A DNA stretch of 64,000 nucleotides from Amphibalanus amphitrite (taxonomy: Eukaryota > Arthropoda > Thecostraca > Balanomorpha > Balanidae): contig NW_024881534.1 of assembly GCF_019059575.1 (NCBI RefSeq), forward strand, positions 1,306,501 to 1,370,500, given 5' to 3'. This document shows positions 28 through 60,294 of this stretch, one piece after another; position 1 is the stretch's first letter; each line of letters opens with the position of its first letter. Below the pieces are notes generated by a model that saw nothing but the letters and a program-made list of their open reading frames with translations, ran no database searches and was not told where the DNA came from. A program made the position numbers and the translations under genes.

Positions 28-921
28 TTAACCCTCGCATGTGTGCGGCGTTTGCCAGCTTCTAATGTGTAGGGGGGGGGGGGTCGGTTGGACCCCCCCC
101 TTGCCGTTTGGCCCCTGATCGAGCTAGAGCTTCGCGGAAAAAACGAGCGTGTTGCCCGTGACGAGAGGAAGCCGATGATACCCAATTTTAAGGTCCTAGG
201 TCATTGGTTGACCTTCCAGGTCAGGTCAATGACCCAAAGTCGGGAAAATCGGGACCTGTTAGAAAGTCGTAAAGTGTGGCTGCTAAGGGGTTTTTCGGGG
301 TGCTGATCACGAATATCGTGTTAGTTTTGATCACAGATGATGTCTTGAAGCATTTAGACCAGGTCGGGTCAGGTCAGGTCAGGTCAACCAGTAGGCGTCG
401 TGACGGGTATTCGTAGTACGTGTCAACCGCCTCTGACAGCTTCGTAACATGTTGCGAAGTCACCAAAACTACTTCGTAAATGTTCAAATGGTTGCTAAAT
501 TCGAATTCAGCTCCAAAAACTAGCCTAGAAACATGTAAAACTCGAAAAAGTGACCCGAGGTCACCCGAGGTCACCAAAGGTCAATGACCTGACCTGACCT
601 TCAGGTGACCTTGACACACACGGGAGTAACATCAAATCACATGTTTGAACGTTTGAAACCACGAAAAGCTTGCAAACACGCGGCTAGTGCGAGCCGACAT
701 ACGCGAAATCGCGATTCCGGCCAAACATGGTCTCGGAAAAGAGGTCACAGGTCAAAGGTCATTTGGGTCAGGGTCATGAAATTTTCAGGGTAGGTGTAAA
801 ATTGATCAATGCGAGGGTACTGAAAGTTTCGTCGCGATCGGCCGCTTTTTACGCGAGTTATTTGCGAAAAACCATGGGGGGGGGGTCCATCCGACCCCCC
901 CCCTACACATGCGAGGGTTAA
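28..921. mobile_element. TTAA-flanked non-autonomous DNA transposon, copy A (piggyBac-like ends)
   Basis: The copy is bounded by TTAA at 28-31 and 918-921. The inverted ends read CCCTCGCATGTGT and its complement ACACATGCGAGGG. TTAA target duplication plus termini starting CCC is the hallmark of the piggyBac superfamily. Just inside the left end a G-run (72-83), a 9-base loop and a C-run (93-100) form a hairpin; the right end repeats this in mirror image (876-903). The interior is full of AGGTCA/TGACCT words, including a direct array at 361-386. No transposase frame is visible, so it would depend on an enzyme made elsewhere. The segment at about 690-900 matches copy C in reverse orientation, and the left part shares a GATACCCA-type module with copies F and D. 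Confidence 0.8.
361..386 (+). repeat. Direct array of GGTCA words
   Basis: Five successive 5-base units (aggtc, gggtc, then aggtc repeats) run head to tail inside element A. Each reconstitutes the AGGTCA nuclear-receptor half-site overlapping its neighbour by one base. Similar words in both orientations recur at 545-610 and 745-780. Confidence 0.75.
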
Positions 922-2673
922 CACTATAAAATGCCAAGCCGTCAGTTTTGAGATGAAAGTATGCATTGTTGACCACGCCTTTGGGCTTTGCGAGTTATCA
1001 TTTATGAAGAAATTGGATCTATAACAGTTATATACAGGTTTTGCAGAGATCAGCGGCGATATAACTCTAAGTAGAGCTTTTTTTCCATGTGTGCCTTGAA
1101 ATGAGTCATCATTCGTAAAATTTCTCCAAAGAAGACATACCCTGTAGCTTGTCAAAGCAAAACGAAGGATAAGATTCACCATCCGAAGAAGACAAGGAAA
1201 AGTGTGCCATGGAATGGAAGGCTTCGTGAAAGACCCATCGTCATATTTCATTTGTGACAGATTGGCACGCCTCTTGCATTTAACCCTTCACCCAAATAGC
1301 TGAAAAGCGTACTCAACGTATTATGGTAATCTTTATAGCCGCGCTGGTCTCAACGAATACCTACTAGAGTGACTCGTAAACTCGATATATGACTGTGAGG
1401 TCCATACGATGAGCACTTTTGTCTTAGTGCCGCTATCGACGTTTTCCTTTTACGGTTCGCAATGTCTCGCTTCATCAAAAGAATGGCGGGTAAATATGCG
1501 CCTTATGCTTATCAACCGCTGTGAGAAAGATTTCATCCATGGAGATCGAACGATTCGGCATGCAAGGGTTCCAATGAGCCAAATGCAATGGCTAAATTCA
1601 TAGTCATAGGCACACTAATTATACAAACGTAGTTATAATTTTGCGTAAGCACAATGCCAGAACTAAGAGTGCAAAGGCACCTAAGGCTTGTGTCTTGTGA
1701 TGTTACTTTTCGACGATGTCCGAAGTCCTAGCATGCAATGCCATCTTATCATATGTCATTCTGTACCGTAAAGTGCTACACTGATACACTGATAGAGTAA
1801 AAAAAAGCTCATTGTTTTAGGACCTAACAAAAATCATTTTTCCTAAGAAATGGTTTGTACGCTCTGCTCTGTTTAAAATGACTAACATGTCATGTGACTG
1901 AAAATCAAACAAACACAAATACAATCACGCAAGTAAAAATGAACGCCTGAAACCCAAGCGGCAGTGATGAAAAACGTCTTTCCGTGTTCTAGCAAAACAA
2001 TGAGGGATTGTCACATCACTAATCCAAGCGACGAAAAGCGGTTTATAGCACCCTCTCTACCAACAAGCTTATCGTCACCACTATCGGCTTCTAAACACAG
2101 CTCTCCTAGAGCAAACACACTCAGCTGTGGGTCGGGGAGGAGCAGTCATATCTCCGAGTCATGCCACCCGCATAGGTTACCGACTAAAGAGACTGGCGTG
2201 ACCGACTGCTATCTCCCAAAGTTCAGTCTGCCTGTGCATTTGAGTCATGTGTGCTGTGCATGCCAGGTAGATACGCCAGCGTTATCCACACTTCTTGCTT
2301 ACAGGAAATGATCCTGGCTAATTATTAAATTATTGTGGATGGTTGGACGGTCTTTCAGGAAGCCAAGAGCAGCATTACGGGCGATTGCATCAGCACTTGC
2401 CGACTCTAGCTTTGCCAGCCATCGAAAAATGGGGACGGTCGCTGTGCCAGCTCTTTTGGATGCAACAGAAGCACTTCCACCTTGCCAAGTCTCGCGACAA
2501 AAGCGAGTGACCTATCCCATCCCATTCCTCCACAATACCACCTCTGCTCCACAAATATCCACGGCAGAATTATTGGACTTGTCAAATCCCTCTACACCTC
2601 AATTCTTCACCAAGCCACCCTCCCTCCCCCAGTCAGCGCCCGTCCAGCTCCCCCCGCGGCGCTGCCCACTTAC
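922..2673. other. Presumed intron, no recognised feature
   Basis: AT-leaning sequence between element A and the left exon. I see only short chance open frames, no RNA gene and no clear repeat. It would be downstream intron of the minus-strand exon ending at 2674. Confidence 0.5.
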
Positions 2674-3356
2674 GGTGATGTGGCGGAGAATGGTGACCAG
2701 ACGTCCGACACGCTGAGTAGCGGGATGGTCAGCTTGGGCATACGGATCTGCCGGCCGCGCCGGGTCTGTACAGTGACCATGTGCCGGTTATGGATGGCGT
2801 CCCAGGCGGGCCGCTCGGGCCAGGCCGGGCCGCGGTCGCCCTGCCAGATGTGCGGCGACACGATGCGCAGCGGGCGCGACGGCAGCTGGTGGTGCTGATC
2901 CAGCTGGTGCTGCAGCTGCAGCTGCTCCAGCTCCACGCCCCGCTGCAGCGGCAGCGACAGCTTCCCGCGCCCCTCGGCCGGCCGGCCCGACCCCGAGGAG
3001 CCGTTCTCGGGTGGCGGCATCAGCGCGGGCTGCGAGCCGCCGCCCGAGGACACCTGGCGCTCCAGAGAGGAGGCGCTCGAGCTAGACATGGTGCTCGACA
3101 CGCTGTGGTGCTGCACCACACCGCTAAAGTGCTGCTCAGCAAGGTGGCTGGCGGCCTCCTCTGACACGTGGCGGCTGAGCGGCGGCGGCGCTCCGGCCAG
3201 CTGCTGCATGCGCGCCGCCCGCAGCTGCTCGCGCTGCGCGTGCTCGCGCAGCCGCTGGATGGTGTGCCGCGCGCGCGGAGACGCCAGCGGGTGACTGCTG
3301 TCCTGATCCAGCAGAGACGGGCTGGAGGTGGAACGCAGCTTCGGCGGCCACTCCAT
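2674..3356 (-). CDS. First coding exon of an unidentified protein; candidate alternative N-terminal exon of the PDE4/dunce gene
   Basis: The minus-strand frame opens with ATG at 3356, with an in-frame TGA shortly upstream, and stays open for 227 codons. It reaches a donor GTAAGT (plus 2668-2673) that leaves two bases of a split codon. Without splicing, a stop follows at once, which argues for the donor. The protein begins MEWPPKLRSTSS. Residues 31-53 are Arg/Gln-rich and probably helical (core IQRLREHAQREQLRAARMQQ). Residues 85-108 are Ser-rich, 141-158 Gln/Leu/His-rich, and 199-209 basic (RRGRQIRMPKL). No enzymatic domain is present, as expected of a regulatory N-terminus. I do not recognise the family from sequence alone. 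The shared split-codon phase and strand with the exon at 63764-63897 suggest an alternative first exon of the same gene, but that is inference. It lies in a CpG-rich block unlike the flanks. Confidence 0.65.
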
Positions 3357-6689: not shown

Positions 6690-6900
6690 CTCAGTGCCGT
6701 CTTTCACGAGCCAACGTCAACAGCGCCCCTCCCCACCCCGCCGGGCCGGGCCAGGTCACAGCGGTGAATCGGTGATACCCCGCGGGGCGCCCGAGCCCGC
6801 ATCTTGGCTCACATCGACCGCCCGAGGGCTCTCCGTCACCGGTGACGTCACAGTCCGACACCCAGTGACGTCACTCTGTCTGACTCACGGCCAGCGAGGG
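6690..6900. promoter_or_regulatory. GC-rich block with paired CRE sites
   Basis: A local GC-rich island ends in two perfect TGACGTCA palindromes (6843-6850 and 6866-6873), 23 bp apart start to start. TGACGTCA is the consensus cAMP-response element bound by CREB/ATF dimers. The composition suggests an alternative promoter or enhancer, but I see no convincing first exon beside it. Confidence 0.45.
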
Positions 6901-9539: not shown

Positions 9540-10437
9540 GAATCAAGCAATAATGAGCTTCAGTGAAGCTCACTATCAGTCGGGGGAGGTTTGGTCAATC
9601 GTTGTCATTTTTAGCACGTGCTATTTTTGTCACACGTGCTAAAAATGACAACGATTCTGCTATTTTTGACAACGATGAGGCCGATTTCACTCCTCAGCGA
9701 GGAAATGAAGATTTTGGAAAGATAAACACTGATTTTGGAAAAGAAGTGCTGCCACCTGGTGCAAGACGAAGAATCCAGCTTTAATATGCCTGTTATTTGT
9801 ATGGTAGTTTGTTTTGTGGCCTGAAGTTGGAACTTAAAATTGAAGCATCCGAAAATGATCGATATTGATCGAAAACATGATGTTGATGAAAAAAATAATA
9901 TTTTAAGTTGAGAGAGGAGGCCATTTTATCCAGATGCAGTAGTTTACTTCTTGAAATTATTTTTGCTAATGACGGCTGCTAATTATCCCTCATTACATGG
10001 CAGTCGTCGTAAGCAAAAATAATTTCAAGAAGTAAACCACCGCATCTGGATAAAATGGCCTCCTCTCTCAACTTAACATATTATTTTTTTCATCAACATC
10101 ATGATTTCGATCAATATCGATCATTTTCGGATGCTTCAATTTAAAGTTCCAACTTCGGGCCACAAAAAAGGGTATACTTCAACGTTGGACTACCATACAA
10201 ACAACGGCCATATTAAAGCTGGTTTCTTCTTCTTGCACCAGGTGGCAGCACTTCTTTTCCAAAATCAGTGCTTGTATTTCCAAAATCGTGATTTCCTCGC
10301 TGAGGAGTGAAATCGGCTTCATCGTTGCTAAAAATAGCTGATAGCGTTGTCATTTTTAGCACATGGTTGCCAAAAATGGCATGTGCTAAAAATGACAACC
10401 ATTGACCAAACCTCCCCCAACTGCTATTGCTTGATTC
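9540..10437. mobile_element. Foldback DNA element with ~430-bp inverted arms
   Basis: The left arm (9540-9979) and right arm (10000-10437) are inverted copies, about 90% identical by eye, separated by a 20-base loop (9980-9999). Shared outer words are GAATCAAGCAATA and then CAGTYGGGGGAGGTTTGGTC. The left arm has a 24-base palindromic insertion (9553-9576) between these words. If CAGT is the true end (9577), the flanks show a 4-base CTAT duplication (9573-9576, 10424-10427); if the ends are further out, no duplication is clear. Each arm also has its own small palindrome near the tip (TTTTTAGCACGTG type, 9604-9650). It encodes no transposase. The superfamily is undetermined. Confidence 0.85.
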
Positions 10438-12363: not shown

Positions 12364-12578
<215 letters not shown>

Positions 12579-17343: not shown

Positions 17344-18881
17344 GATTTTACTTGCAGCCTATCATTTAATCTGATACCTGCTCCACTATGCTGGCTCTAG
17401 TGGCCGCTGCACATAAAAGGATTACGGACTAGATAATATCAAGATTCCAGATCGGTTTTCGGTAGTCTGTTCTCGGAGCAGAAGAAGCTGATCAATAGTT
17501 GCAGCTAAAATCACTATGCACCGACAAATGTGGGTATTGGCTAGGCAAATATGTAAAATCATTAACTGTAGCGGCTAAACTATTTGTGGTAGACTTTAAA
17601 ACCTGGTAATGAAGCAGCATATGTACAATGTGCACTTGCAGTCGCATCTGGAAATGATTATTCAACGCAGCGATATGGGAGACACCATCCACATTGGCTA
17701 CAGACTGGATGGCATAGTGGGGGTGCAATGTATCCCCACTCGATTCAGTTTAGGGTTGAAACAAAGCATCCCCCGAGAATGAATATCTAATCAATGTTCG
17801 AGCGAATTCCTGCATTTCGCCCTCCGAAATGGCCAGCTCTATCACATTATGCGGCATGTAAAGGTTACTGAGATGCTTCTATGCAGATTAGCTCATTAGA
17901 GAGTGGAAATTATAGCACCCGGAAACATGAATTCCGATATTTGTGATCCTTGACAGCTCCAAAAGGCCCATTATTCATTATTAGTTTGCAAATAGCTTTG
18001 AAACAGATAAGTCAATGTTGTAGAAAATGTCCGTTTTGATAAAAGCTTGCAAAACAAAACTTCCGTTCGTCATATACTGATACAATATGGACGACGATGG
18101 CCTAAATTCCGGTCCAAAACTGGAACCTTGTTACGTGCCAGTTAAGGTAGCCATACCAAAGCTGTGTGCACTAAAATTCACAATAGAAAACATTACCGTC
18201 GTCGTATTACAAGCCGAAAGTACGACCCATGTGAGCTAAGGTAAAATACAGTTACAAATTCACGCCTAGAAGCGTTGCCAATAGCACTAGCACGCTCATT
18301 TTCAGGTGACACTCAAATGCAGTACGTAAGTGGCTCAGTGTTCCATTTTTGGGAATTTTGGGTGGAAAATCACACCTAATGGGCAAAATATTTTCATCCC
18401 CAAAACCAGGTAAATTGGAATTCTTTCATCTTTGAAAAACGCTCAACGCATGCTCAACAATTAATAGCCAGATTACCAGATACACCTAGCAGCGCCATAT
18501 AGACAGTTAGAACTTACAGGTTTGCTACATAATACATAATTTCCATGAAAAAAGATGCTAAATCAAGGCACAAACCCAACAACTCACCCTGACTGACAAC
18601 GAAAGAAAATAAACTTGCACACTTCCAGCTGTTAATAACAAATATGCGTTGAATGACCTTGATCACCTCAACTGTTTGTAAAAACCAGGCTTGTGTTCTG
18701 AATAGATTCTTTTGGATATTCATAACAACTATGATTGGTGGTTTGCTGCCAACGCAAAACGGATGAGCCGCTGCTTGCGCAAATTAAACACTACCTCTGC
18801 AATTCGCTTTTGACTAAGTTACGCAGGATACGCCTACAAAATTTTCATCTTTGGACCCGCAGTCAGCTGGGCACACCCTGC
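17344..18881. other. Non-coding AT-rich stretch
   Basis: No frame, RNA gene or repeat that I can support. Confidence 0.5.
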
Positions 18882-19762
18882 GCACACCCTAGGGATGAAT
18901 TTAAAACTTGGTGGGCTATAACTTGTTTCATATACAAAATAGGGTTATAAGACCGATACCAATTTATTCTACATTCATTTCTGATCCTATTGTATCAATT
19001 TCACCACAAATTATGTCCGTCGATGGCTTCTAGAGGACTTTAAAGCTCGATGCTTCGGGCCTGGCAGAGGTCCAAGATGAGAAAAGCCACCCTGCGCACA
19101 CCCTAGGGATGAATTTAAAACTCCGCGGGCTCTGGCTGGTTTCATAGGTAAAATAATGTTTTGAGACCGATACCAATTTATTCTGCGTTTATTTCTGATC
19201 CTATCGCATCAATTTCGCCACAAATTATGTCCGTCAATGGCTTCTAGAGGACTTTAAAGCTCGAGGCGTCGCGCCTGGTAGAGGTCCAAGATGAGAAAAG
19301 CCACCCTGGGCACACCCTAGGGATGAATCTAAAACTCCACGGGCTCTGGCTGGTTTCATAGGCAAAACAATGTTTTGAGACCGATACTTATTTATTCTGC
19401 GTTCTTTTCTGATCATATTATATCAATTTCACCACAAATTATTAACGTTATTAGTTTTTAGATGTCTTTGAAACTCGAGGCGTCGGGTCGGGCAGGGGTT
19501 CAAGATGACTGACACGCCACCCTGGCACACCCTAGGGATGAATATGAAACTCTGTGGACTCTGGCAGGTTTCATACGCGAAATGAGGTTATAAGACCGGT
19601 AATGATGTATTTTACGTTAATTTCTCATGCTTTTGCAATAATCTTACCGCCAATTACTCATTTCAATTAGTTTCTAGAGGTTTTTAAACACGAAGCGTTC
19701 GGCCGAGGGAAAGCCAAGACGAGTGAAAGGATACCTTGGCACACCTCTAGGGATAAATTTAA
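18882..19762. repeat. 214-bp satellite, four units plus a partial fifth
   Basis: The word AGGGATGAAT (or a one-base variant) starts at 18891, 19105, 19319, 19534 and 19749, giving periods of 214, 214, 215 and 215. Units 2 and 3 are closest; unit 4 is more diverged. The array is cut at a TTAA inside the fifth unit by element H. Confidence 0.92.
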
Positions 19763-20501: not shown

Positions 20502-21702
20502 TTAACCCGCGCCCTGGTGTGGGTCTGAGCCACCTTCGCCCTGGTGGGGGGGGGGGGGGGGGCCAAAATGACCCCCCCCCGTCTAACTCGAAAACGAAGA
20601 GGGCTAGGAAGACGCGGAAAAAAGCAAACGAAAGCCCATAACAAGTACGTTCGAAAGTATTTCAGTCATTTTTTCGCTAAGGTCAATATTGAGGTCGCTA
20701 GAGGTCATCATAGGTCAAATTTCAGTGTTTTCGGTGTTGCCGGACATATTCCGCTGTAGCTCGGAAACTAGAAGAGCTAGAGAGCCGCGGAAAAAAGCAA
20801 TCGATAGCTCTTTTCAAGCTCTTTCGCCAAGGTTCGTCAGATTTGACCTCAGCTCAACGGTTTGGCCCACAGAGGTCATGCAAGGTCAACTTGGCAAATT
20901 TCGTTGAAAATGTTTTTAACTATAGCATGCATTCACGAGAAAATAGAGAAACGATTCATGCACCATCGTGCTTGGCTCGTCGAGACGCGTCGAATGATAT
21001 ATAGTTTGACCTCGAAAGGTCATTTTGAAAATTTGACCTCAGGTCAAGGTCATGACCTTACCGAAATAGGTCATGCTGCATATCATTCGATCCGCATTGA
21101 CGAGACAAACACGATAAACGTCGAACGGAGTCTCTATCTCTATTCAATAACAAGTAAGTGCAGAAAAACCGCTGGTGACCTCTGGTGACCAGGGAGATGA
21201 CCTAGCGTGACCTCAGCGAGGTCACAAGCAAATGGTTTCACATGGGCTGTGATTTGCTGACCCAAGACACTTCAATAACGAAATATAGGAACAATCACGC
21301 CCGATTTAGCTGAAAAACAACTACTTTTCGATTCTCCCATTGACTTATAATGGGGAGCAGCGATGACCTGACCTGACCTTAGGTCACATTTATAAAAAAT
21401 CCGAGATAGCCATTTTGTAGAGCTGGGTGACATCTTCAAGTACTGTAAATTTTACATCGATCGGATAAAAGCTGTGCCTTTGAGAGAGCTTTGAACTTTT
21501 TAGAGGTGGTGTCAGTTTTGGTGACCTTGTGACCTGACCTGACCTGACCCGAACCCCCCAAAAAAGGACATGATGTAAAAATGTTGAATAAACAGCTATA
21601 CAAAGTTTCAGGGCGCTAACTCAAGTGGTTTCTGAGTTATCGCTGAAAAACCACAGGGGGGGGGGGGCCAAAATGGCCCCCCCCCACCAGGGCGAAGGTT
21701 AA
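20502..21702. mobile_element. TTAA-flanked transposon, copy B
   Basis: TTAA at 20502-20505 and 21699-21702. The left end reads CCCGCGCCCTGGTG. The right end in complement reads CCTTCGCCCTGGTGGGGG and is matched more exactly by an inner left-hand copy at about 20532-20550. G-run/loop/C-run hairpins lie inside both ends, with loops ccaaaatga and ccaaaatgg. Many AGGTCA/TGACCT words are present. A core at about 20995-21120 has TCGAATGATAT facing ATATCATTCGA and is shared with copies D and E. It is nested in element H. Confidence 0.8.
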
Positions 21703-23377: not shown

Positions 23378-23611
23378 TTATCCCTCGCCCGTATGGGGGG
23401 GTCGAACGAACCACCCCCCCCCCTCGTTTTTTTCGAGAATAACTCGCGTAAAAAGCGGCCGATCGGGACGAAACTTTCAGGACCCTCGAGTCAATTAATT
23501 GGACACCTACTCTGAAAATCTCATATTCCTGACCCAAATGACCTTTGACCTGTGACCTATTTCTTGAGGCCATGTTTGGCCGGAATCGCGATTCGGCGTA
23601 TGTCGGCTCGC
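23378..23611 (-). mobile_element. Truncated transposon copy C
   Basis: It starts TTAT then CCCTCGCCCGTATGGGG, a G-run, a loop and a C-run. It then matches the right-hand 210 bases of copy A in reverse complement (AACTCGCGTAAAAAGCGGCCG and onward, including the GACCTTTGACCTGTGACC part). Similarity stops at about 23611. No second end was found, so this is a one-ended fragment. TTAT suggests a mutated TTAA. Confidence 0.75.
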
Positions 23612-23745: not shown

Positions 23746-26560
23746 ACTCAGCACTTACCACGTGACATGATAGGTAGCTACCGCTCCGTTTCGGTGGCCG
23801 GCCATGAGGTCGGTGGCATCCTTTTATCATTTTTTTGCATCCCGTTCCGTTCCGATACGGATACGGATTCCCCCGCCCCGGGCCGGCCGCCGCCCATGGA
23901 CGCGGCGCAGCGCGTGTGAATGGTTAGTTGCACGCTTTTTATTGCGATGTTGCGTATTATGCTGCGTAGTGCACATCGTTCCGTTAGGGGTGCCCTAATC
24001 AGTGACCCTTTTTCTAGTCTCATGTAGTGCACCGTTCCTTTCGAAGAGTTGCGCTGACACCGTTTCCATTTTCACTATGCGTAATGAGTACAAACTATCG
24101 CTGGCCGTTCCGGCGTTCGGGCCGGGAGATTTCCGGCGTATGTCATGCTGCATAGTGCGACTGCAATTGCATACTCAATGCTGCGTCCCGTTCCGTGTGC
24201 TCAGAGCAAAGGCACCATTTCCAGTATCATCCCGGCCATTGTCATATCTGTTGAAAATGGAAAGCTCAAAGCTATACTGTGTACACTGTACAAATATTAC
24301 CAGGTCAGATGCGAACGAAAACTACATACTTATATTGCCGCATATTATCTCAAATATACAGTAATCTTGGAAGCAGTGCTGCCATATTGTAGGCGCAAAA
24401 CGTCCCAGAGGCCAGAACACATGAGTTATACGGTTTCTGGTTCCATAGCGATCAGTTACGTCAACAAACTGCCCATCAGGGTATCATGATTACCTAAGAT
24501 TTTATGTCTGACAGTGTCACAGTGATGACCACGCCTCACGCATTACACAGTCTGAGTCAACTGCACTAAATCAATAATACAGGACGACCGAATGATACCT
24601 TTTGCAACGGCAACGACAGGTTCCTTGCTACTTCCTTTGCTTAAAAAAGAAAGAAAACTTCTCCACATGGCAAATTACACTACACCAGACCAGATACCTT
24701 GACCAGTGACTAGAACCAAATCCTGCATATATGGAGAGCTGACTCACCCGCCCCTCCCCCACCCTTCTTAAGATATGACAACAGATTTCAACAGAATCAT
24801 TGCATCTTCTGCTTCTTAAGGACCTAGTTCGCTCGCATGATGGCGACTGGCGTCGCGAGGATGGAGGTCCGCGGATGATCTTCTTTAGGAGAAATATACA
24901 GGCAGAAGGACCGTCCTGGATCCGTGCCAGTAAGCATGAGTAGGAACTTAGCAGATGCTGACGGTAATATCTGCTGTCTGCATCTGAAACGGAAAGAAAG
25001 GCATTGATTTAAGGCTAGGAGAAGGATGGCCACTGGACAGTCATTCAATTGTGACAATGCATTTTGACTTGTGAGGAAAATGAAATCTCACTGGTTGAAG
25101 TAGGTATTTTGCTGTATGAGAGACAAGGGTGATTCTTAAATTCATTAGTCTCAATCAAACACAAATGTTGGGATAAAATGGGACGGATTTAGAAACACTT
25201 AGCGATCAGATGTTAAAGTTATAATTCTGCCGTAGATCATCCTTACCTATTTGCATCGTCTTTTTCGGTTAGTTTTGGTGGTCAGGAATGGTATGTTCTT
25301 TTATTATCAGCCAGCGTAGCGTTACGCCTTTATTGCGAAAGTGATATAGGTTTTCACTTGTTTTTTTTTCTCATCCTAGATTTTTTGGTCATCATCGTCA
25401 CACCCAACCAAAATCCAATTTTAGAACACTGAAGTGGCTAGAAAGGTCAGTGTCAGTGGCGGTGGAACACCTTCAATTAGGGAGGGGGGGGGGGGGGGAA
25501 TGCCGACTTTTGGTCCCATTCTTTCCATGCAACGCCCATAGGACTAATGTTAAAATGTCAAAATCAAAGGGGGTACGGTGCCCCGCCCCCCCCCCCCTTT
25601 CGCCGCCAATGGGAGGGGCATGGGTTTACTCGTATAGCACAAATCAATGATCGACCCAGTATGATCACACAAAGTGATTGTCAAGCGTAGTACGCAAGGT
25701 GTAACGACTTCAGTGATTGATAGGGTAGGGGTCATAGACCACAAGGGCCATCGAGTTATGATTTGAGGAATGGTGCAGTAATATCGTTTTACAAATGCTC
25801 CATTGACTTGCACCGTGCAGCTTCTTCAATCTTATTGTGAGTAGAAAGTGCATGCTATATGCGTAAATGGTGCATGTTTATTGCTAGTTCTTGTCACTTG
25901 ATATTTCTCGAAATATGTTTATAATGGCACTAAGTGATCTCTTAGTGTTCTGTGTTTAGGTCTATCATATTGCATTGTTTAGCAATGTGAGCAATTAAGT
26001 TTTGGAAAGGAAAAAATCAACAGTACCTTAGTGCTGTAGATTACTTTAGATGCTGAAGCCACTTTCAATAGTTGCAGTCAGAAAGAACACCCACTTTCCG
26101 CCAAGTCGTACTCACCTGAAAACAGAGAAACGAATGCGTCACAAAGTATAGTAGCATAGCATGGGCGCATGCGATTAATGAACATGGCCTGAGAATCATA
26201 AATTGTTAGTGAAATTACAAATGCCATAATGGGTTAGCAACAACGTCAAATGCAGCCAATAGCTTCTTTGCAGCTCTAACCCACTCATAGAGGACATTTG
26301 AACTTGAATCGGAGTCAATGTTATTTATCATTGAAATTGCTGTCGGATTGCCTTCTCAAGCCGTATACGACGTAATAAATAAGAACTGACTGAACGTTGA
26401 AGAAATCACAAAACATTCACTTTTCACACCCTGTTATGTCAATATTGTCAATGTCCTAATCATTTTCCACCAGGATATCTCACCTCCCCCGGCCCCCATA
26501 CACACACACACACACACTCATATCATACACCTGGCGTCGGTAAGTTCAAAGCCGGTAGCC
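23746..26560. other. Non-coding stretch with isolated G- and C-runs
   Basis: A long G-run (25484-25498) and a C-run (25586-25597) about 90 bases apart could be the hairpin arms of a decayed element. A (CA)n run lies at about 26500-26517. No gene was recognised. Confidence 0.45.
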
Positions 26561-34216: not shown

Positions 34217-35261
34217 TTAACCCTCGCCGGCCGAGGGGGGGGGGGGGCGGGTGCCGCCCCCCCCCATAGGGTTTTTTTCGCGATAGCTCCGAACACGCTG
34301 GCGATAGAGAGCTGAAACTTGGCATACCTGACCTTTGATCCAAGCCGGATCTTTTGACACCAACCGCATTTTTGGGTCAGGTCAGGTCACTGACCTATGA
34401 CGTCATAAGTGAACCTCTGCACGGTCTTCAGATGTCGCAACTTCGCAACGCCCTCACTGCCAGAGGAGATGTCACAGGGAAATGAAACTTGCAGGATCTA
34501 GTATCCATTATGAGTCCCACAACTTGTATATCTCGGATTTTTCCTAAAGGTCATATGAGGTCAGGTCATTTTCGTGACCTCACCATTATAAGTCAATGGG
34601 GAAAAATTCAAACTGCTATTCTGGCGCCGGGAACGATCTCCAACTATCTCAAGCACACAGAATCGTGATTTGCTGCACTCCTTGCAAGGTTAGATGCGTC
34701 ACTTTTGCAATGTTGACCTTGCATGACGTCATTTATGACGTCATCAAGGTCAAATTAGTTTTTCGTCAATAACTCTTGATCAAATTGAGCTAGCGAGTCG
34801 GGAAAGGCACCAATGGACTCAGGAAGGCCTGCCGAATCGAATGATATGCAACATGACCTCTTTCGACCAACTTCGTGACCTGGGGGTGCTGACCTGGCCT
34901 TGACCTGAGGTCAACACCCCAAGTTGACCTGACCCGGACAAAAAGTATATCATTCGACGCGCCTGAGCGAGGCGAACACGATGCTGCCAAAATCGGCGCT
35001 CTGCGGCCGTTTTTTGCGAAGTTATTCACCAAAAACTGAACCGTACCCTGGGGCACTTGACCTGACCTCAGAGGTCACCGGTTGACCTAGGACCTTAAAA
35101 TCGGGTACCAATCTCTGCGTCTCGTAACGGCGCACACGCTCGTTTTTTCCGCGACGCGCTAGCTCCACCAGGGGCGAAACGGCGAGGGGGGGGGTCGTAC
35201 CCGCCCCCCCCCCCCTCGGCCGGCGCGTATGTAGAAAACCAATAGGTCCGGCGAGGGTTAA
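34217..35261. mobile_element. TTAA-flanked transposon, copy D
   Basis: TTAA at 34217-34220 and 35258-35261. The ends are CCCTCGCCGG and complement CCGGCGAGGG. A G-run, cgggtgccg loop and C-run follow the left end; the mirror structure lies at about 35184-35215. AGGTCA/TGACCT words are frequent, three TGACGTCA sites lie inside (34398-34405, 34724-34731, 34736-34743), and the TCGAATGATAT core shared with B and E is at about 34835-34965. It shares the GATACCCA/GGTCCTAGGTCA module with A in inverted orientation near 35085-35115. No transposase. Confidence 0.82.
34724..34743. promoter_or_regulatory. Paired CRE sites inside element D
   Basis: TGACGTCA at 34724-34731 and 34736-34743 (12 bp apart). 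Because they lie in a transposon, they may have been carried in rather than evolved in place. Confidence 0.4.
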
Positions 35262-43700: not shown

Positions 43701-45198
43701 AAATTATTTCACATGGCATATGTGTTTAATGTCAGAGCGACGAAATAGGCAGTGCATTCCTGAGCTGAGCCCAGCAATGTAGGCACTAGACAGCCTCTCG
43801 GCAAGCATGTGTTATTCCGTGATTTTGCCGTTTCTGGAGGCCGGCGACGCCACTAACAGGACATTTAATTGACGAGAATGTCTCTGTCACCGCGGATGGA
43901 AGACAGTATTGGTAAACAACCACAAACAGCTACACCTTTCGATGACATGTCAATCATTTGTTGGTGGTTCTCTGAAACCTTTCGCAGCTGCCAAACATCG
44001 TCATTGAAGATGGAGAATTCCTAGCATGATCAACGATCAATCCTTGCTCAGCGTGTGGCCCTGTGTGATCGTGAGTCTTACGAGTATTCGGCGACAAGCT
44101 ATAATTCTGACTGAGGCCGTCTGGAGTCTCTAGCTGAGTCTGGTTTAGTCAGGTCCGCCAGTCCAGTATAATCCAGACCTTGTCCGATCTGTTTTAATCT
44201 GAGACCTATGATCTGAGGCATATTGCAGTATCAATCTCACTTGGGTCCATGTGCCCGCTTTGGTCTGACGTGGTCTGGTCTGGCGTCATTCACATCATTC
44301 CGCGGCTGGTCACGAAGCAGACCCCTCTGTCTGGAATTCGGGACAGGGCGTGGCACAGTGACTCCACATGGGTGGGCGGTCTGTGTCGTGAGTAATCTGG
44401 GCCTGCGCCGGCACAGCCGACTCTCGTAAACAGTGCACGTAGTGCAGTGGTGAGTGCAGACGGTTGGGACTCGCCAGCTGAGACACGTGGTTTGGCTGTG
44501 TCTGTCACGTGGAGAAGGTGACAAAATAGAAAGATGATTGTCGACATAAGATTATGTCACATATACGGTTTTCTCAGGCGATCGATAGCAGTGCGGATGT
44601 GACACAAGACAGATAAAGTTTTTGCATGATGCCAAACTGCCATTGATGCGCTCGAACGTAGTCATATGACTGTCAGATCTGACAGGATTCAGGAACTCAA
44701 CATAAAACTGAGTTCCAGAACTGATGTAAAGTTGATGTTTGAAAGTTCACACACAGGGCATTAGACAACACAGGAGCATATGTATGAAATAGCAATACTA
44801 TCCAATGAAAATGAGTTTTGCAGTATGGGTGTGCTAGTTAGTTAAAATTCGGTCGTTAACTCTAGTGTGACCTTCGCATTCGGTGGTCCGATCTTCGCTT
44901 TCGGTAATAGGATTTCTGAAATAAAACTCGTCTTAGAACTTGCAACGGGAGACAAACGTGGATAGTTGTGCCACTGATTACGATGGCTTCCCATTTGACA
45001 ACATGTCTTCCCATGTCAACAACATTAGCCACATATTTGCTAAATATTCTGCATACCGTGGAACTCGTTGACAATGCGGTGGCGTGAGTAACGTAGTAAT
45101 GGAATGCACGGTGGGCCGCGAAGCTCAGAAAACACAGGATGTGTCGAAATGGTGCTGCTGCATACACGCCCCTCTCACCGACCCTGTGTGTGCTATTC
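40761..45198. other. Mostly non-coding; one unrecognised 191-codon frame
   Basis: A plus-strand frame at 42937-43512 (MNMMHSKRKTAESFLADSPS...) is Ser/Pro/Gln-rich and open for 191 codons. Without homology or splice support I treat it as probably chance. A GC-rich block at 42380-42760 and G-runs near 41368-41378 are present. Otherwise nothing. Confidence 0.3.
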
Positions 45199-45358
45199 GT
45201 ACAGTCGTGTACAGGTTGATGGTCCCCTACTCTTTATCCACCGGGTTCCTATGGCTCAGCATTGGCAGCAGCCGCCTGGTACCGGTAGGCTGTGCCGCAT
45301 GACCCGAGAGTGAAGCGGCACAGTCTACCCACGCTGTTTGACATCGGCTCGGGTCGCC
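45199..45358 (+). repeat. 160-bp repeat, copy 1
   Basis: It begins GTACAGTCGTGTAC (itself palindromic) and contains a 14-15 base hairpin, GTAGGCTGTGCCGC facing GCGGCACAGTCTAC. It ends in GGCTCGGGTCGCC. By eye it differs from the inverted copy at 46504-46663 at only four of 160 positions. Confidence 0.9.
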
Positions 45359-45854
45359 GGGTGGAGCGCTTTGTAGACCAGCTGTCGCGTCAGACCAGCG
45401 CGGGGGGAGGGGCTCGTCTCGGTGGTTGGCGTGGGCTGGCGAGTGCGTGGGGCGTGGTGGTGGACCATGGGGGCTGGGCGGGTGTGTGTGGTCACTTGCT
45501 GCATTGCACATTTTGCGTCGTTTAACAATTGCATTCCTGTTTTTGCTAAGCACAATGCACGGAAGACCCAGCGAATATAAGTTACCTGTGCATTGTGCAA
45601 AACGTGATTTGGCACGGTATCGAGGCAACCATAGGTCTTGTGCCACATATATGCATGATATTTAGGTAATACGCTTATGAAAATGGTAGATTGATCGGAT
45701 TGATCCTGGATGTCAATTCGTATGCTAAATGTCGACATGTATTAAATGAACGAATGAATGAATCAATCAATCAATCGACAATCGACATGTAGATATAAAA
45801 CCGTATAAATGGCTCGCAACCACTAAAATCAAACCAGAACCTAACTCGGAAAAG

Positions 45855-45955: not shown

Positions 45956-46042
45956 CGCAAAAACATTCATTGACTTTTTTGCCGACCTCCCGGCCCCGCC
46001 GCCCGCCCGGCCAGACTTTGCCCCGGCCGTGGCCACCATCCG

Positions 46043-46120: not shown

Positions 46121-46503
46121 GACGTTTATTTCTGTGTCGGAGGCTATGCGATTAGTCCACTTTTCAGAAACATTATTTGGTGACAGGTCTGTTTTCTTTC
46201 TTTGCTGTAATTCATGAGGAGACCGTATGGACCCTTACCTGTCCTTCCGCACCCCACTTGGGAGATTTTGTGAATATCTCTAAAGCGAATTTTTGGAGGG
46301 TGGATTACGATCGGTTCTACGCGACAAGTGACCACTCACACCCAGCCCCAGGTCCGCTCACTCCCTCCCCACATCACCCCCGCCCCACACCACACTCCAG
46401 CCCGCCTCATCCACCGAGCTGAGCCAAATAGACAAGCCTGACCCTTACCCCCCCCCCCTCCCCCAGCCGGTGTAACGCAGCGTCCGGTCAAATCGCTCTA
46501 CCA

Positions 46504-46663
46504 GGCGACCCGAGCCGGTGTCATACAGTGTGGGTAGGCTGTGCCGCTTCACTCTCGGGTCATGCGGCACAGCCTACCGGTACCAGGCGGCTGCTGCCAA
46601 TGCTGAGCCATAGGAACCCGGTGGATAAAGAGTAGGGGACCATCAACCTGTACACGACTGTAC
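46504..46663 (-). repeat. 160-bp repeat, copy 2 (inverted)
   Basis: Reverse complement of 45199-45358, about 97% identical by eye. Weaker similarity runs on past GGTCGCC into GGTAGAGCG-type sequence on both copies. The pair encloses 1145 bases that hold two tRNA-like SINE heads. Confidence 0.9.
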
Positions 46664-48009
46664 AATGAGCAATTCTCCCAGCAACAACTGCAACAAGCCA
46701 TGAGGCGGATGTTATTGTTCAGCAACCATTGTTTTGCTCCATTGCAGTTATTTATTTCGGCTTCGATCGTAAGCAGATTCGGATATCCATTTCCGAGGCT
46801 ATTGAAGAACCTTCAGTTGAGTTGGCTGATAGAATTTGTTCATCCAAGAGTTTATGAGGTAGAGGTGACCCCAAAGAATAAGCGAGCAAGTTGGGTTGTT
46901 TCGCGACCTTTCAACGCAAGTCCTAATTTAACTTGCTCATAGGGGTCAAATTACTCAGCGTTGCGGCATTGGGTTCATTAGAAAATGCAGTTAATCATTT
47001 TGTCGTTGATGAATGACTTCTCATGAACCGCGCGCTTTGAAATATTAGCTAATAAAGAAACAATTCGCAGATAAAGATGAGCACAGCTAACTATTGCATA
47101 GAACTTTAAAAGCATTTATTAGCAAATTTATACCACTGTTAACGTCCACTGCTGAGCAAGTAACTTGAGCTATAAAAAAAAAAACAGAAAAGCAGCAAAG
47201 GACGGTCAAACATTTTGAGAGTCGTCCCTTTCAGTGCCAGAGCAGCACGCCATTCGCCTGTCTCCTTTAAACTAGACACAGTTCTTGATGCACGCGAGCC
47301 GATGCATTCAATTCAAACCACCTTCAAATAAGGCGGCAGGGCTTCTCCGCTTAGAGGGAAAACACCCCATCCCGTAACGAGCAAGGATGACGCAATATGC
47401 CATCTCACAATACACTAACAGCCACGTAAGGAGGAGGGTCCGACTTCGAGCCACGCAAACTGTGCAGCATTGCGCGTGTAACTTTGAGCCCTTCCGCTGC
47501 CTAATCATGATAAGAGATTGAGTGTGTTATGTTTTGAATTACATATATCTGGACCGTGTGCAGTTAAATGAAGAAAAAATAATGTGCTAGTCAATACTGT
47601 TCCATCTGTTCTTAGCTCGTGCGATGAGTTCGATAGGGCATTGTACCGAACTCGCACGTAGGGGGCAATCGCATCTACGCCTCGGAGATCTCTGTGACAG
47701 TGTAAGCGGAGCACGCGCTGTAGGTAGATGATAAGCAGACGATATGAGAAAATGAAGTATGATACTCTTGACACCCAATATGATCAAAGGTCGATGCTTC
47801 CTAGTCCGTCGTCATTCATAATCGTGCCATAATGTCACTGTTTATAGTAAGCGCTAGGCCAGTCTTATATCTGTCACTGGTCAAAAGCCATGGACATCCC
47901 GACCAAGCTGACACCAGCTCTTTGAGAAAGAAAATCTTCGGTCTACATTTATCACTCAGCAGTTATTTTCGGCCGTCTTAGCAAGTGTACTCGATGACCT
48001 ATAATGCCA
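46664..48009. other. Non-coding stretch
   Basis: Nothing recognised. Confidence 0.5.
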
Positions 48010-48914
48010 TTATCCCTATTAGTGGCAGGCTCCTGGCTACCCCTATTAGTGGCAGGGGGGGGGGGGGCTGTTTACGACCCCCCTTGATATCTCGAGATCT
48101 AACGGGCCGATTTTCAAAATTCAAACGGCATTCGATTTCGCTCAACGAGATCTACATTTCTAAAAAAAATTAAAAATGTCAATAGGGGGGTAGAGGGGGG
48201 TAAAAACGGGCAAATTGCAGATACATTTTAGACTGTTTATCACGGCCAGGTTTCTGAACCAATCTTAACGCAACCTTTGCCAATCGATAGAGCCCCTGTG
48301 AACTGGAGAATCCATGTGAACCAGGAATTCACATGGATTCTAAAAATATGCATTTTCAAAAATCATAGGCGGATACAGATCATTGAGATTGGGGTACACA
48401 AAAAGTATAGTAAATAAGGTTTTTGTTGGTACTGTTTCTAAAAAGGGTGGCAATGGTCTTGTTATGTTACAATTTTCTTATGAGAGAACGACTAAAATTG
48501 TATTGGTCATGCATAGGCGGTGTCAGGGCACCTATGTTGGGAGGTAAAAAATAACTCCCCTTTTTGGACGCCTGGATCCGCCTATTATAGCAAAAACGTG
48601 TCAAAAGAGGATGCACAATAACTTTGTATATGTTATCACATGATACCTTTCATTCACTGTTCGTAAAACTGGTGCAGCATCGTAATCTTCGCCCAAATGA
48701 CTCGCTTCACGAATAGCACCCCCAAATTCCCAGTACTCTGGAGCCGCCCCTGGTAAAGTTATGAGCTTGAAATTTTCAGGGAATATGCCCAATTTAGTGT
48801 TAGGAAAAGTCAGAAAATTTCAGCATCGTAGCTTCAGCGGTTTCGGAGATATTCCCGAAAAACCTGAGGGGTGGATAAAAACAACCCCCCCCCCCCTGCC
48901 ACTAATAGGGTTAA
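48010..48914. mobile_element. TTAA-type transposon, copy G
   Basis: The left end is TTAT then CCCTATTAGTGGCAGG; the right end in complement is TTAA then CCCTATTAGTGGCAGGGGG. The left TIR occurs twice (48014 and 48040). A G-run follows the left end and a C-run precedes the right end. Unlike A, B, D, E and F, the interior has almost no AGGTCA words. Inside, ATAGGCGGATACAG (about 48366) faces CTGGATCCGCCTAT (about 48572-48585), suggesting a second small element nested in it. Confidence 0.7.
48363..48588. mobile_element. Possible small nested inverted-repeat element
   Basis: The ends CATAGGCGGATACAG and CTGGATCCGCCTATT are imperfect inverted repeats. Similar GGCGGATCCAG-type ends are common in small DNA transposons. 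The target duplication is not clear. Confidence 0.35.
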
Positions 48915-53379: not shown

Positions 53380-54574
53380 TTAACCCGCGCCCTGCTGGGG
53401 GGGGGTGTTTGAACACCCCCCTTGTGGTTTTTCGCGAATATCTCAAAAACGGCGGCGCGGAGCGCCGCCGTTTTTGGTACACCTTATCATACATCAATTC
53501 TACACATGTTGTAAAAATTTCAGACCAAGGTCATTCAAGGTCAGGTCACCAGGTCACTTGAAGTGACCTCACCTCATAAAAAGTTTCAATGTCTGTCATA
53601 GCTACACCGAGTGACCGATCGCTTTGAAACTTTCAGCGATTGCTAAGAGCAATAGCATGTACAAAATGTATATCTCAGAATTTTGATATCGATGACCTAA
53701 GGTCAGGTCAATTTTGCGATCTCCCCATTATAAGTCAATGGGAGAAAATTGAAATGCGCCTCTTTTGGATGAAAGACATTATAAACACTCCCAAACACCG
53801 AATTACAAGTGGTTTAGACACACTGAACTTGAAAATGGTGTCCGTGACCCTTGTTTATGCCCTGAGGTCATCTTAGGTCACGAATGGTATCTAACAGTTT
53901 TTCGCAAATAGCTTTTGATAGAGGCATGCTAGAGCGATGAAAACGGCTTAGATGTGTTCAGCTCGACGATACGGATCGAATGATATGCAACACGACCCTT
54001 TCCGGTCAGGTCATGACCTTGACCTGAGGTCAAATTTTCAAGTTGACCTTTCAAGGTCAAGTTATAGTTCATTCGATGCGTCTTGACGAGAGGAACACGA
54101 TGCCGGTAAAAGTAAGCTTGTACGAGGCTTGGGTCAAAAGTTATTGCAGAAAAACTGTTTTTGAAAAAATCGGCTATTTTTGCAGTTTTTGCCCCCTGCA
54201 GGCAAAACCGCTGACGTTAGGTCAAATCTGAGAGAATTACTCAGAAAGGGCGTTAATAGGGCTATCGAATGCGCTTTTCCGCGGCGCTGTAGCTCTATTG
54301 GTTCCCGAGTTATGCGTTGGCTTCTTGGAAATTTTCGACATTCGACCTGGAAATTGGCGAAATTTTGCCTTCAATGACCTCTGGTGACCTGACCTTTGAC
54401 CTGACCAAAAAATTGACCGAAGTGATTTCGTCATTATTTTTTACGCTCTTTCGAACGCCGCCTTCCGCGTATCGCTACGTGGCCCAGGAGCCGAGTTACA
54501 AGGGGGGGTGTTCAAACACCCCCCCCCCCCAGCAGGGCGTGGAAATCCAGGGCCCCCAGCAGGGCGCGGGTTAA
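53380..54574. mobile_element. TTAA-flanked transposon, copy E
   Basis: TTAA at 53380-53383 and 54571-54574. The ends are CCCGCGCCCTGCTGGGGG and its complement. Hairpins G-run/tgtttgaaca/C-run lie at both ends (about 53396-53421 and 54501-54530). The right end carries an extra partial terminus (CCCCAGCAGGGCG twice). AGGTCA/TGACCT words are dense at 53525-53580 and 53985-54065, and the TCGAATGATATGC core is at about 53975-54085, as in B and D. No transposase. Confidence 0.82.
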
Positions 54575-57500: not shown

Positions 57501-59373
57501 GCAGGTTCGCCGGGCGTGCCTCCTCCGCGGTTCCGCCGCCGCCCACCGCCTACCGCCCACCGCCCACCGCCCGCACCGCCCTCACAGCCGCCCTCGGGGC
57601 CGCCTCCCACACCGCTAGCAAACGGCAACAAAACCCAAACATACCGTGCCGCCGTGCATGCTAGACCACCACGCGAGCAGCAAACGCGAACTGACGTAAA
57701 GAGTGGGACTTGTGCAGCGCTGGAGCGAGATGTGAGCGTGATTTTTACTGCGAGCAGACTGGATTTGATGTGGTTTGGTCTGGGTTGGACCCCGAGCGGG
57801 TTCGATGTTTCGACCGTGATTCGCTGTACGTCCCGCAGCTCATGCAACACTGTGGAACACCATGGAGACATCACTCATGTCCTGGGGGTGTTTAAAGATC
57901 GAGAAGATTAAATATGCATGCGACTGATGAGGTTGCAGGGTCCATCCTCCCTACCCCGGTCACGAAACACCTGCACTGGAAGCAGCCCTAAAATGAGCCA
58001 GCTCAGGGAGCGGCACCACTTCTCTGGCCCTCCAGGAAATTCACGGCAGTAAAACAGCTCAACCGGCTCACTATCAACCAGGAAGTCTGTTGCACGGCAC
58101 AGCTGCTAGACAACGCCGGCACGTAGATTACTAATCGTTGACGATATCGCGTGGATGACGACAAAAGTCCAGTTTAGGCCGCAATGCTGTATGTATGTAC
58201 GGAACGTGGCGCCCGAGAACACAGGCAAACTCATCCACCCCCGATAACTTGTTGGGAAAATGATGCAGGAGTCTATCACCGTACCTTAGGTAAGCAGACC
58301 GCCATACTGGTCAAACAACGACGGAACGCGTGCCGGCCTGTTCAGAGACATAAGTGCGCATGAATGCACACACCACGTTACTTTGTGTCAATGGGTAAAG
58401 TCGATTGGCATACAAAGCTTCATCGATCCATGTGGAAACCAGAAAGCAGCTTGAATGCCCTTTGCTATGCATCGGAACAATGGTGCGGAGCCGCACAAAA
58501 ACGTATCGATGAAATTCGTAGCAATTGACTAACGCATCTGTAAAGCTACGTCATTTCTTACATGGTAAGCCCATCGTCCCATGTGGCATATCGCTTCTCA
58601 GTCACATCAAATGCACTAGATCAATTAATCCAGCCATTCGATAGATATATGAATATCTCCACATTAAATTCAATGTAGATACGTTACTCATATCTCGAAT
58701 GCATATTCAGCACTCATTTTGAAAAGCAACTCTCAGAGACCATTTAGGAGCTGTCAAGACTCAAGAAGCACACATCCATTTCAGACCAGTGACGTCACAG
58801 CATATCAAGCGTGTCACTCATCAGGGCGTACACGAACATACGAAATTGTCGGCCCACAATATCACCCAGCATAAACATTGGTCACTATCAAACAAAACAA
58901 TGTCAGAGGCCCTGGTCCATGTCAGCTCCGACCCAGTGTGTATTCGGAGCTGGGTAGAACTGTTTATGGAGAGCCGGGGTTACGGGTCGTGACTGAGAAA
59001 AACGTGTGAAATGTCGGCTGAAGAAGGTTGACGCATGATCTGCACTTGTCCCCACAAATAGGTGTAAGGAATGCTATTTTGCCAGTCTCTTTGACATAGT
59101 TTCAATAGTCACGAGAAAAAGGCCGTTGAATGACAAAGCGTGAGGATAAATGTGAGTGTGAGCTGAGAGGTTTGAAGCATTTTTTTCTAGCGTGATTTTA
59201 AAATGACGGAACTAAAACGAATAAAGGAAGACAATGACTACAACCAACAGTTTGCTTTTAATATCAACATTATCGTACTTTTTCGGAAATGAGTACATTT
59301 TACGATACTAAAGTTTTCATGATTTAGCTGCCTTACTTCCATTGAACACAAAAACATTAGGTTATGGCCGCGG
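54575..59373. other. Non-coding stretch with GC-rich patches
   Basis: C-rich strip at 54590-54720. A 22-bp tandem pair, GTCCCACCRTCGCTGGCGAC, starts at 56004 and 56026. A GC-rich patch at 57360-57660 has a plus-strand frame (MDSGGGGSGG...) that I do not recognise. One CRE at 58790-58797. Confidence 0.45.
58790..58797. promoter_or_regulatory. CRE site
   Basis: A single perfect TGACGTCA. It is the CRE nearest upstream-to-downstream from the right exon, about 5 kb into the presumed intron. Confidence 0.35.
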
Positions 59374-60294
59374 TTAACCCTCGCCCGCACATGCCATTTT
59401 CCCATCCTAGAACGCACATGGGGGGGGGGGGGTTGCCACCCCCCCCGCGCCATTTCGTTCCTGTTGGAGATAGAGCTTAGCAGTAAAGACCAAAAAGATT
59501 CTTTGGGAAGAGACGAATCCAATGATACCCAGTTTTACCTTCTCAGGTCAGTCATTGACCTTCCAGGTCAGGTCAAACTAAAAAATGTTGCTGTTTTGGG
59601 TCAACGTTGGATATCAAGTGTGCTGCTTATCAAATACCGATGACGATGCTGTTTTCTGGTGCCAAGCCAGCTAGAACCTCTTTGTCACACTACCCGACCA
59701 GAACTTTGCTGCTGAGGTCATTTCAGGTCAAGTTAGGTCAAGGTCAATTATATGTGTTTGTATGTCTGTGTGTGTCTGTGTGTATACTGATGTGTGCACC
59801 GATTGTTTTTTGGGTCTATATTACATGAAATCATGATCTGAGAAGCTTTTACCAAAAATGCAGTCAAAAAACTTCAAAAAAAGTAAATTCAGCTAGCCTA
59901 AAACGCAATTATCTTAGATGACCTAGGTTGACCTTGACCCTGACCTTGACCCCTGTACATCGTCGAACAACATGTTCCATGATAGGTGGGAGTTAAGACT
60001 GGCAAAAAAAGGCGGAAATCAGGGTGTCAAAAGCTCATAAGGCCCATGGCAAACGCAAGATGTTGAGAATTGGCCATTTGGGTCATGACATGACCTGAAA
60101 AACAAGGTCACATCTCCGAAACCAAAAATCACAGAAACTTGAAATTTTCAGTGGACATCAAGAAAGGATAGAGGAGCAGCTATACGAAAAATCAGCCTTC
60201 TAGCTCTAAAAATGTTGAGTGCAGAGCAGAAAGACTACCTGGGGGGGGGGGGGGGTGGCAACCCCCCCCCCCCCCATGTGCGGGCGAGGGTTAA
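59374..60294. mobile_element. TTAA-flanked transposon, copy F
   Basis: TTAA at 59374-59377 and 60291-60294. The ends are CCCTCGCCCGCACATG and its complement. A second CGCACATGGGGG word precedes the left G-run. Hairpins with ttgcca/tggcaa loops lie at both ends. The left interior matches copy A (AATGATACCCA... GACCTTCCAGGTCAGGTCA). A short (TG)n run lies at 59753-59800. No transposase. Confidence 0.82.

Follow-up and report, generated by a model that had tools for sequence, protein, structure and literature searches.

Seven related elements lie in a stretch of 64,000 nucleotides of the Amphibalanus amphitrite genome (contig NW_024881534.1, positions 1,306,501 to 1,370,500; this whole stretch is called the window below), and they are very probably non-autonomous piggyBac transposons that are moved in trans by the transposases of a hairpin-ended piggyBac lineage. 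Six are complete: A, B, D, E and F, which are flanked by TTAA, and their relative G; C is a fragment (Table 1). The elements would represent the outer arms of autonomous hairpin-ended piggyBacs after loss of the transposase gene, and the transposases of the lineage, acting in trans, would cleave at the CCC ends and target TTAA for insertion. The direct evidence comes from A (TTAA on both sides, an empty site and a burst of copies), from B (an autonomous parent) and from one group of transposases with the same end architecture; by kinship, the same origin would extend to D, E, F and G. An initial annotation of the window had described a family with TTAA-CCC termini in which the ends diverge while the plan stays the same. 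That plan is richer than first described, and includes hairpins at the ends, an array of AGGTCA clusters spaced by about 172 base pairs (bp) and a depletion of internal TTAA.

The five copies that had been called complete are bounded by TTAA on both sides, exactly to the base. The claim that all copies have such boundaries holds for these five but not for G or fragment C, both of which start with TTAT (the latter at 23378). Similarly, CCC is found at both ends of A, D, E, F and G, but the right terminus of B is TTAACCTTCGCCC; the ends of B are unequal, with CCC on the left and CCT on the right, where the sequence reads TTAACCTTCGCC. The complete elements measure 894-1201 bp, in agreement with the range first given (0.9-1.2 kb). 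They were also rightly said to lack a transposase: the longest stop-free frame within any of the seven is 72-113 amino acids, and no listed genome match to PF13843 falls in the window. A Pfam search with 10 of the 27 window open reading frames (ORFs) of at least 150 amino acids returned only one match, below the cut-off, to Peptidase_C62 (E 0.031), and a PDB search with one of these ORFs returned none. Rfam and tRNA scans of the window found nothing, and viral contigs scanned for the end pattern gave 0 matches.

A chance origin of the shared pattern was dismissed because the copies align with each other. B and E, which lie in opposite orientations, are 64% identical over their whole length (1231 bp), and B and D are 60% identical over about 805 bp. 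The similarity of A to F is 70% over 205 bp, and A, D and F have 168-206 bp near one end in common at 65-81%. Fragment C corresponds to the right end of A, with 83% identity over 236 bp, and G has about 57-129 bp near one end in common with A, B, C, D and E. The idea of a shared plan with diverging ends is borne out by an element elsewhere in the genome, C702:33975-34969, which joins a G-like end (75% over 116 bp) to an interior that resembles those of B, D and E (67% identity to E over 572 bp). Judging from this element, the families seem to exchange ends and interiors.

When A was used as query against the 808-Mb genome, all 40 scored copies (of 2608 first-look candidates) spanned positions 1-894 at 99% identity or more. 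With B, all 40 scored copies (of 4108 candidates) spanned 1-1201, or came within one base of an end, again at 99% or more, and their lengths were within about 12 bp of 1201. Each set of 40 consists of the best-scoring copies and includes the window's own, so that age and copy number cannot be read from it for the whole A or B family. An alignment of 24 of the 40 scored A copies (L001 being the window's own) gave lengths of 890-899 bp. Copies without a TTAA boundary, or with ends extending further, had been named as the observation that would speak against the family, and for A the outcome was clear: all 24 end exactly at TTAA and have unlike flanks. For B, D, E and F the corresponding test rests on the two TTAA of the window copy, and in G one of the two TTAA reads TTAT. 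Mean pairwise divergence among the 24 A copies is 0.46%, with 39 private variants against 4 shared ones, a star-like pattern, as expected of the recent burst that A has undergone. An empty site was also recovered: when the flanks of copy L061 are joined with a single TTAA, they align continuously across the site with A-like elements (90% over 87 bp) and D-like elements (74% over 81 bp) that do not carry the insertion. Among the other families, a full copy of G (90.8%) is present in L048 and a partial copy of F (90%) in L027, and the D-like copies in L010 and L023 contain inserted plain piggyBacs.

Four of the 24 A copies (L004, L005, L008 and L066) adjoin another TTAA-CCC element with which they share the TTAA, and two of these neighbors have the E-like ends CCCGCGCCCTGCTG. 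A preference for insertion beside TTAA-CCC elements is not claimed from these cases; 13 of the 201 TTAA in the window already have such a neighbor. Nor is an internal TTAA hot spot claimed from the nested insertions in L010, L061 and C778; A, B, D, E and F each hold one internal TTAA.

The suspicion that TTAA together with CCC points to piggyBac is supported by the parent of B, which encodes a piggyBac transposase. A genome search with PF13843 gave at least 116 matches (116 of 232 candidates were scored), and 45 loci around such matches were examined, 21 of which could be delimited by matching ends. Nineteen of these are plain piggyBacs of 2651-3331 bp, most with ends of the type CCCATTAGTGCC, with no hairpin and 0-4 copies of AGGTCA. 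The remaining two, the C33 and C527 elements, have end hairpins and 20 and 33 AGGTCA. The initial annotation had proposed a search for an autonomous element with matching termini, and for B such an element exists: C33:447032-451754, which is 4723 bp long, has the same unequal ends as B and contains an open frame of 666 amino acids (645 from the first methionine). Positions 1-689 and 688-1201 of B correspond to the two arms of this element, both at 98.4%, and the 3.5 kb between them, including the ORF, is missing from B. The spacing of the AGGTCA clusters survived this deletion because the junction falls within a cluster. The C33 transposase matches DDE_Tnp_1_7 at 1e-59 and the PDB entry 6x67 ("Transposase"), which we take to be the Trichoplusia ni piggyBac transposase, at 1.3e-56. 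The alignment to 6x67 covers residues 137-664, including the segments DESLIKYRGR, MDRYFTSIPL and GGVDVID, presumably those that hold the catalytic residues (three aspartates), and a cysteine-rich tail at the C terminus.

Elements that carry a transposase and have CCCTCGC ends like those of A, D and F were found as well, at C527:289270 to about 294187 and as a close relative in C1173; the C527 element has the same kind of hairpin and clusters at these ends. C778 probably has another CCCTCGC-ended element with a transposase. At C527:290214 (L054 and L039), the autonomous CCCTCGC element contains a head-to-head junction of two inverted CCCTAGAACGCC hairpin ends at a single TTAA. This junction in the 4.9-kb element may be an insertion, and the left and right halves may also be two fused elements.

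Transposases with the hairpin-end architecture appear in a tree to group apart from the other piggyBacs sampled. The tree contains 30 transposases, 15 of the 45 rows having been dropped as 98.6-100% identical to kept rows. L039, L040, L044 and L045, which have these ends or arrays, together with L036, are split from the 25 others with a branch support of 100. L036 was outside the group labeled beforehand; its 14 AGGTCA had been seen before the tree was made, and its hairpin end was found afterwards. This locus has a CCCTCGC hairpin end (probably the left one), AGGTCA clusters and a hairpin near the expected right end, where no TTAA was found. Several points weigh against the trans-mobilization reading. 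Several tips of the tree are long, and the tree program issued a warning about long-branch joins. Of the 25 other rows only 8 could be assigned ends, in the case of L047 by a weak 9/14 match; L020, also one of the 25, is without located ends and carries 13 AGGTCA in its locus. Among the transposase loci examined, none is a direct autonomous parent of A, D, E, F or G, and no autonomous partner has the ends of E or G. As a separate observation, eleven PF13843 loci (L022-L032) have a 604-amino-acid frame that is 99-100% identical, which suggests that this plain piggyBac lineage may have been recently active too.

Membership in piggyBac is established for B by its ends and transposase and for A by TTAA, the empty site and the ends; D and F are included on the strength of their ends and their kinship. 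E is a full-length relative of B, and G would belong with the others through its ends and hairpin.

Both ends of A, B, D, E and F carry a G-run, a loop of 6-10 bases and a C-run, in that order, and G has one such hairpin, at its left end. Near the TTAA-CC ends of the loci examined there are 31 distinct loops, in which the outermost bases pair in 22, the outer two in 10 and the outer three or more in 7. The chance of pairing is 1/3 for the first pair, about 1/12 for two and 1/48 for three, which leads one to expect about 10, 3 and 1 of the 31; loops within a lineage are not independent in this count, and 9 of the 31 have no pair. The paired letters vary (TGTT/AACA, CGTT/AACG, TAAA/TTTA, TTG/CAA, CCA/TGG, CGG/CCG and TCGG/CCGA). 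There is thus moderate support for the view that pairing, and not G-richness alone, would be kept in the loops while their sequence changes between families. Elsewhere in the window, at 25484-25597, runs of G15 and C12 are separated by about 90 bp, and no TTAA-CCC ends were seen there; this is perhaps the remnant of a hairpin-ended element.

The second architectural feature is the array. AGGTCA, counted on either strand, occurs 99 times within the elements (6.4 kb in total) and 36 times in the remaining 57.6 kb of the window, a 25-fold enrichment that places it first among hexamers in the ranking used. Spacings between clusters in A, B, D, E and F, including the distances to the ends, are 146-206 bp, with coefficients of variation of 0.07-0.11. 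Random placement gives such evenness or better with probabilities of 5e-6 (B and E), 3e-4 (F), 4e-4 (D) and 8e-4 (A). When these five elements were pooled with one each from C702 and C778, the best period was 172 bp; its score of 86.9 exceeds every one of 2000 randomizations in which whole clusters were moved (at most 60.6). Six other hexamers scored 6.8-10.5, a weak comparison with only 10-28 sites. Element lengths also fall into classes by period: 892, 894 and 921 bp correspond to five periods, 998 and 1045 to six, and 1195 and 1201 to seven. When 39 elements were reduced to 11 groups, clusters ran throughout the representatives of 7 (A, B, D, E, F, C702 and the C527 stretch of the autonomous element) and over part of the length of 2 (C778:1787-2709 and L004:313-1504). 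The remaining 2 (G and C778:8295-9368, the latter with a doubtful end pair) had no AGGTCA or one. In the autonomous elements the pattern is looser, with arm spacings of 164, 164 and 160 (right) and 168, 174, 144 and 73 (left) in C33; in the left arm of C527, 6 of 8 spacings are 180-214 and the others 324 and 382.

The half-sites tend to point inward: AGGTCA occurs 35 times on the left and 16 on the right, and TGACCT 12 and 33 times (Fisher p 4.5e-5). When B and E were aligned with the hexamers masked, 15 of the 25 B hexamers were intact, compared with about 9% expected from the 67.5% identity. The end hairpins and the inward clusters at about 172 bp may then be putative cis-acting sites needed for transposition, a reading we hold tentatively and at slightly less than even confidence. 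A DNA-binding protein sitting on one cluster per nucleosome linker could keep the ends accessible or help to join them.

A number of observations count against a role of the array in transposition. The seven phased elements represent few lineages, since they include the relatives B, D and E, the C702 element with its common interior and a C778 element that is 89% identical to A over its length. The fourth and last cluster of A breaks the inward orientation. In masked alignments the hexamers are not kept in place between B and D (2/25) or between A and F (4/17), where either the sites turn over or the alignments slip, and masking itself may favor the pairing of masked runs. Finally, G is hairpin-ended and has no AGGTCA, so that either the array is not needed by every such element or G uses the transposase of another lineage.

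A stronger version of the cis-site reading is that the lineage has its own ordered chromatin, in which protein-bound AGGTCA linkers would phase nucleosomes at about 172 bp from hairpin to hairpin, with element length equal to whole nucleosome repeats; together with the purging of TTAA, this would explain the success of the short derivatives. It seems improbable as it stands, and it was marked down slightly because the C702 and C778 elements proved to be kin of B, D and E and of A, respectively.

Of the competing accounts, the one that survives best, doubtful as it is, takes the AGGTCA clusters as the decayed remains of a satellite-like tandem array of about 170 bp, whose spacing would be inherited and without function. 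A plain tandem-repeat reading is partly supported: segment B0 is a direct copy homologous to B1, and the pairs B2/B3, D3/D4 and E3/E4 are related in inverted orientation around a central cluster. However, comparisons of segments within elements reach p<=0.01 in only 7 of 154 cases, whereas B, D and E readily yield matching segments when compared with each other, and the hexamers shared by B and E are far more intact than the surrounding sequence. Furthermore, A and F have kept the spacing even though their segments A1-A3 and F1-F3 score no more than 14 against B, D and E (the shuffle maximum is 15.5).

AGGTCA is the half-site of nuclear receptors, and the array might alternatively be a host nuclear-receptor regulatory module that drives transcription of the transposase, the short elements merely inheriting it. 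The specificity of the hexamer fits this idea (150 exact occurrences in nine stretches, compared with 1-27 for each single-mismatch variant), as do 14 cases of direct repeats with a 4-bp spacing. The commonest spacing, however, is a one-base overlap (27 cases), which is unusual for receptor dimers. In addition, arrays are present at both ends of the C33 element, upstream and downstream of the ORF, and the half-sites are oriented with respect to the element ends, as a promoter would not need. Since the array is present at both C33 ends irrespective of gene direction and its orientation follows the ends, a role in transposition or packaging is preferred over a promoter. The receptor module is judged unlikely.

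Less likely still, the elements might act through a folded single strand or RNA, with the end hairpins and inverted AGGTCA/TGACCT clusters forming a long fold-back. All six complete elements indeed fold more stably than their dinucleotide shuffles (15 per element; z -6.9 to -11.0), and their inner parts give z values of -2.2 to -10.1, but the end hairpins provide much of the signal, the inner signal is weak in A, F and G (z -3.1, -2.2 and -2.3), and the AGGTCA orientation is not fully inverted. As TTAA duplication is not unique to piggyBac, another TTAA superfamily such as Kolobok could have converged on the same ends, an idea that is hardly credible given that B's autonomous parent encodes a piggyBac transposase, although no search was aimed at the transposases of other superfamilies.

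The third feature is the scarcity of internal TTAA. Eight elements together contain 8 internal TTAA, compared with 39.5 expected from dinucleotide shuffles (0 of 500 were as low). Of the 16 palindromic tetramers, TTAA is the most depleted in A, B, D, E and F, with a ratio of 0.21; CCGG follows at 0.50. The autonomous elements show the same scarcity, with 2 against 12.6 expected in C33 and 1 against 7.8 in the C527 stretch. The piggyBac transposon inserts into its own TTAA sites, which has been suggested as one reason why longer elements do worse (PMC3952818); the available part of that study shares self-insertion at TTAA with the present case and contains no statement about natural elements without internal TTAA. 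The simplest reading, and probably the correct one, is that internal TTAA are scarce because of selection against self-insertion. It tells against a special link to the hairpin lineage that TTAA is also low in six plain piggyBacs taken together (18 against about 40 expected) and slightly low in a 19-kb control stretch (64 against 80), so that the depletion is not special to that lineage.

Table 1. Elements, end hairpins and AGGTCA arrays in the window (positions of the window, first letter = 1)
Feature	Positions	Strand	Remarks
Element A	28..921	+	894 bp; ends TTAA-CCCTCGCATG
Element B	20502..21702	+	1201 bp; internal-deletion derivative of autonomous piggyBac
Fragment C	23378..23611	-	truncated A-like end; hairpin 23395-23423
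Element D	34217..35261	+	1045 bp; ends TTAA-CCCTCGCCGG
Element G	48010..48914	-	905 bp; ends TTAT/TTAA-CCCTATTAGTGGCAG; hairpin 48055-48083; no AGGTCA
Element E	53380..54574	-	1195 bp; ends TTAA-CCCGCGCCCTGCTG
Element F	59374..60294	+	921 bp; ends TTAA-CCCTCGCCCGCACA
A left hairpin	72..100		G12-TCGGTTGGA-C8
A right hairpin	876..903		G10-TCCATCCGA-C9
B left hairpin	20546..20580
B right hairpin	21656..21685
D left hairpin	34235..34265
D right hairpin	35186..35215
E hairpin	53397..53421		G9-TGTTTGAACA-C6
E hairpin	54502..54530		G7-TGTTCAAACA-C12
F left hairpin	59420..59446
F right hairpin	60241..60275
AGGTCA array of A	198..761		clusters 198-228, 371-386, 558-611, 742-761
AGGTCA array of B	20680..21545		6 clusters: 20680-20717, 20844-20888, 21007-21073, 21176-21224, 21364-21386, 21522-21545
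AGGTCA array of D	34329..35088		5 clusters
AGGTCA array of E	53528..54402		6 clusters
AGGTCA array of F	59545..60110		4 clusters
Deletion junction in B relative to autonomous parent	21189..21190		inside fourth AGGTCA cluster

Three other repeats were seen in the window. An inverted repeat (45191-45373 and 46489-46671) has arms of 183 nucleotides that are 95% complementary and 1115 nucleotides apart. A long palindrome at 9656-10341 consists of nested inverted repeats, in which arms of 168 nucleotides (95%, 20 nucleotides apart) lie within arms of 153 nucleotides (91%). The third is a tandem array of a 214-bp unit at 18874-19730; it holds about 4 copies, of which the later are 63-88% similar to the first.

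The elements are judged to be ordinary in movement, as members of the piggyBac superfamily, and unusual in build, with an architecture that is new. With characterized members of the superfamily (PDB entries 6x67 and 9c0f, the latter "piggyBat transposase") they have in common TTAA duplication, CCC/CCT ends, DDE_Tnp_1_7 and a C-terminal cysteine-rich stretch. Compared with the 19 delimited plain piggyBacs of the same genome (2.65-3.3 kb), the two autonomous hairpin-ended elements are larger (4.7 and 4.9 kb) and differ in their end hairpins and phased AGGTCA. The short elements resemble miniature inverted-repeat transposable elements (MITEs) in having no coding capacity, terminal inverted repeats and many copies of uniform length. 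At 894-1201 bp they are larger than MITEs, which are usually under 500 bp according to the available text of one study (PMC2872659), and "non-autonomous internal-deletion derivative" is the better term.

The same source, as far as its available text goes, provides the closest comparison, the CMITEs of Acropora corals, which are about 100 bp long with a conserved 75-bp interior whose origin was left open by the authors (PMC2872659). These share with the present elements TTAA, CCC ends and families with varied terminal repeats and a common interior, one of them tied to piggyBac, as well as tandem arrays and nested TTAA insertions. In contrast to the CMITEs, the present elements are 0.9-1.2 kb long, the interior of B comes from the arms of an autonomous element, and the conserved part is an array of spaced hexamers. 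Pokey of Daphnia, with mPok1 and mPok2, is likewise a case of piggyBac-superfamily elements with MITE groups; it is known for insertion into ribosomal DNA, and the available parts of the two reports mention no hairpin or AGGTCA array (PMC3849761, PMC4912750). Among the literature matches listed, neither phased AGGTCA nor G/C end hairpins are described for a piggyBac element in titles or opening abstract lines, which is not proof of absence in print.

If the interpretation of the hairpins and clusters is correct, these elements would provide a natural high-copy system in which transposition sites recur at nucleosome-repeat spacing, and a role of chromatin in eukaryotic transposition would become testable. 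The depletion of their own target site would be genomic support for autointegration as a real cost to a transposon. Furthermore, the hairpin and the hexamer are specific and countable, so that the question of which parts drive non-autonomous spread, left open for the coral CMITEs, would become testable.

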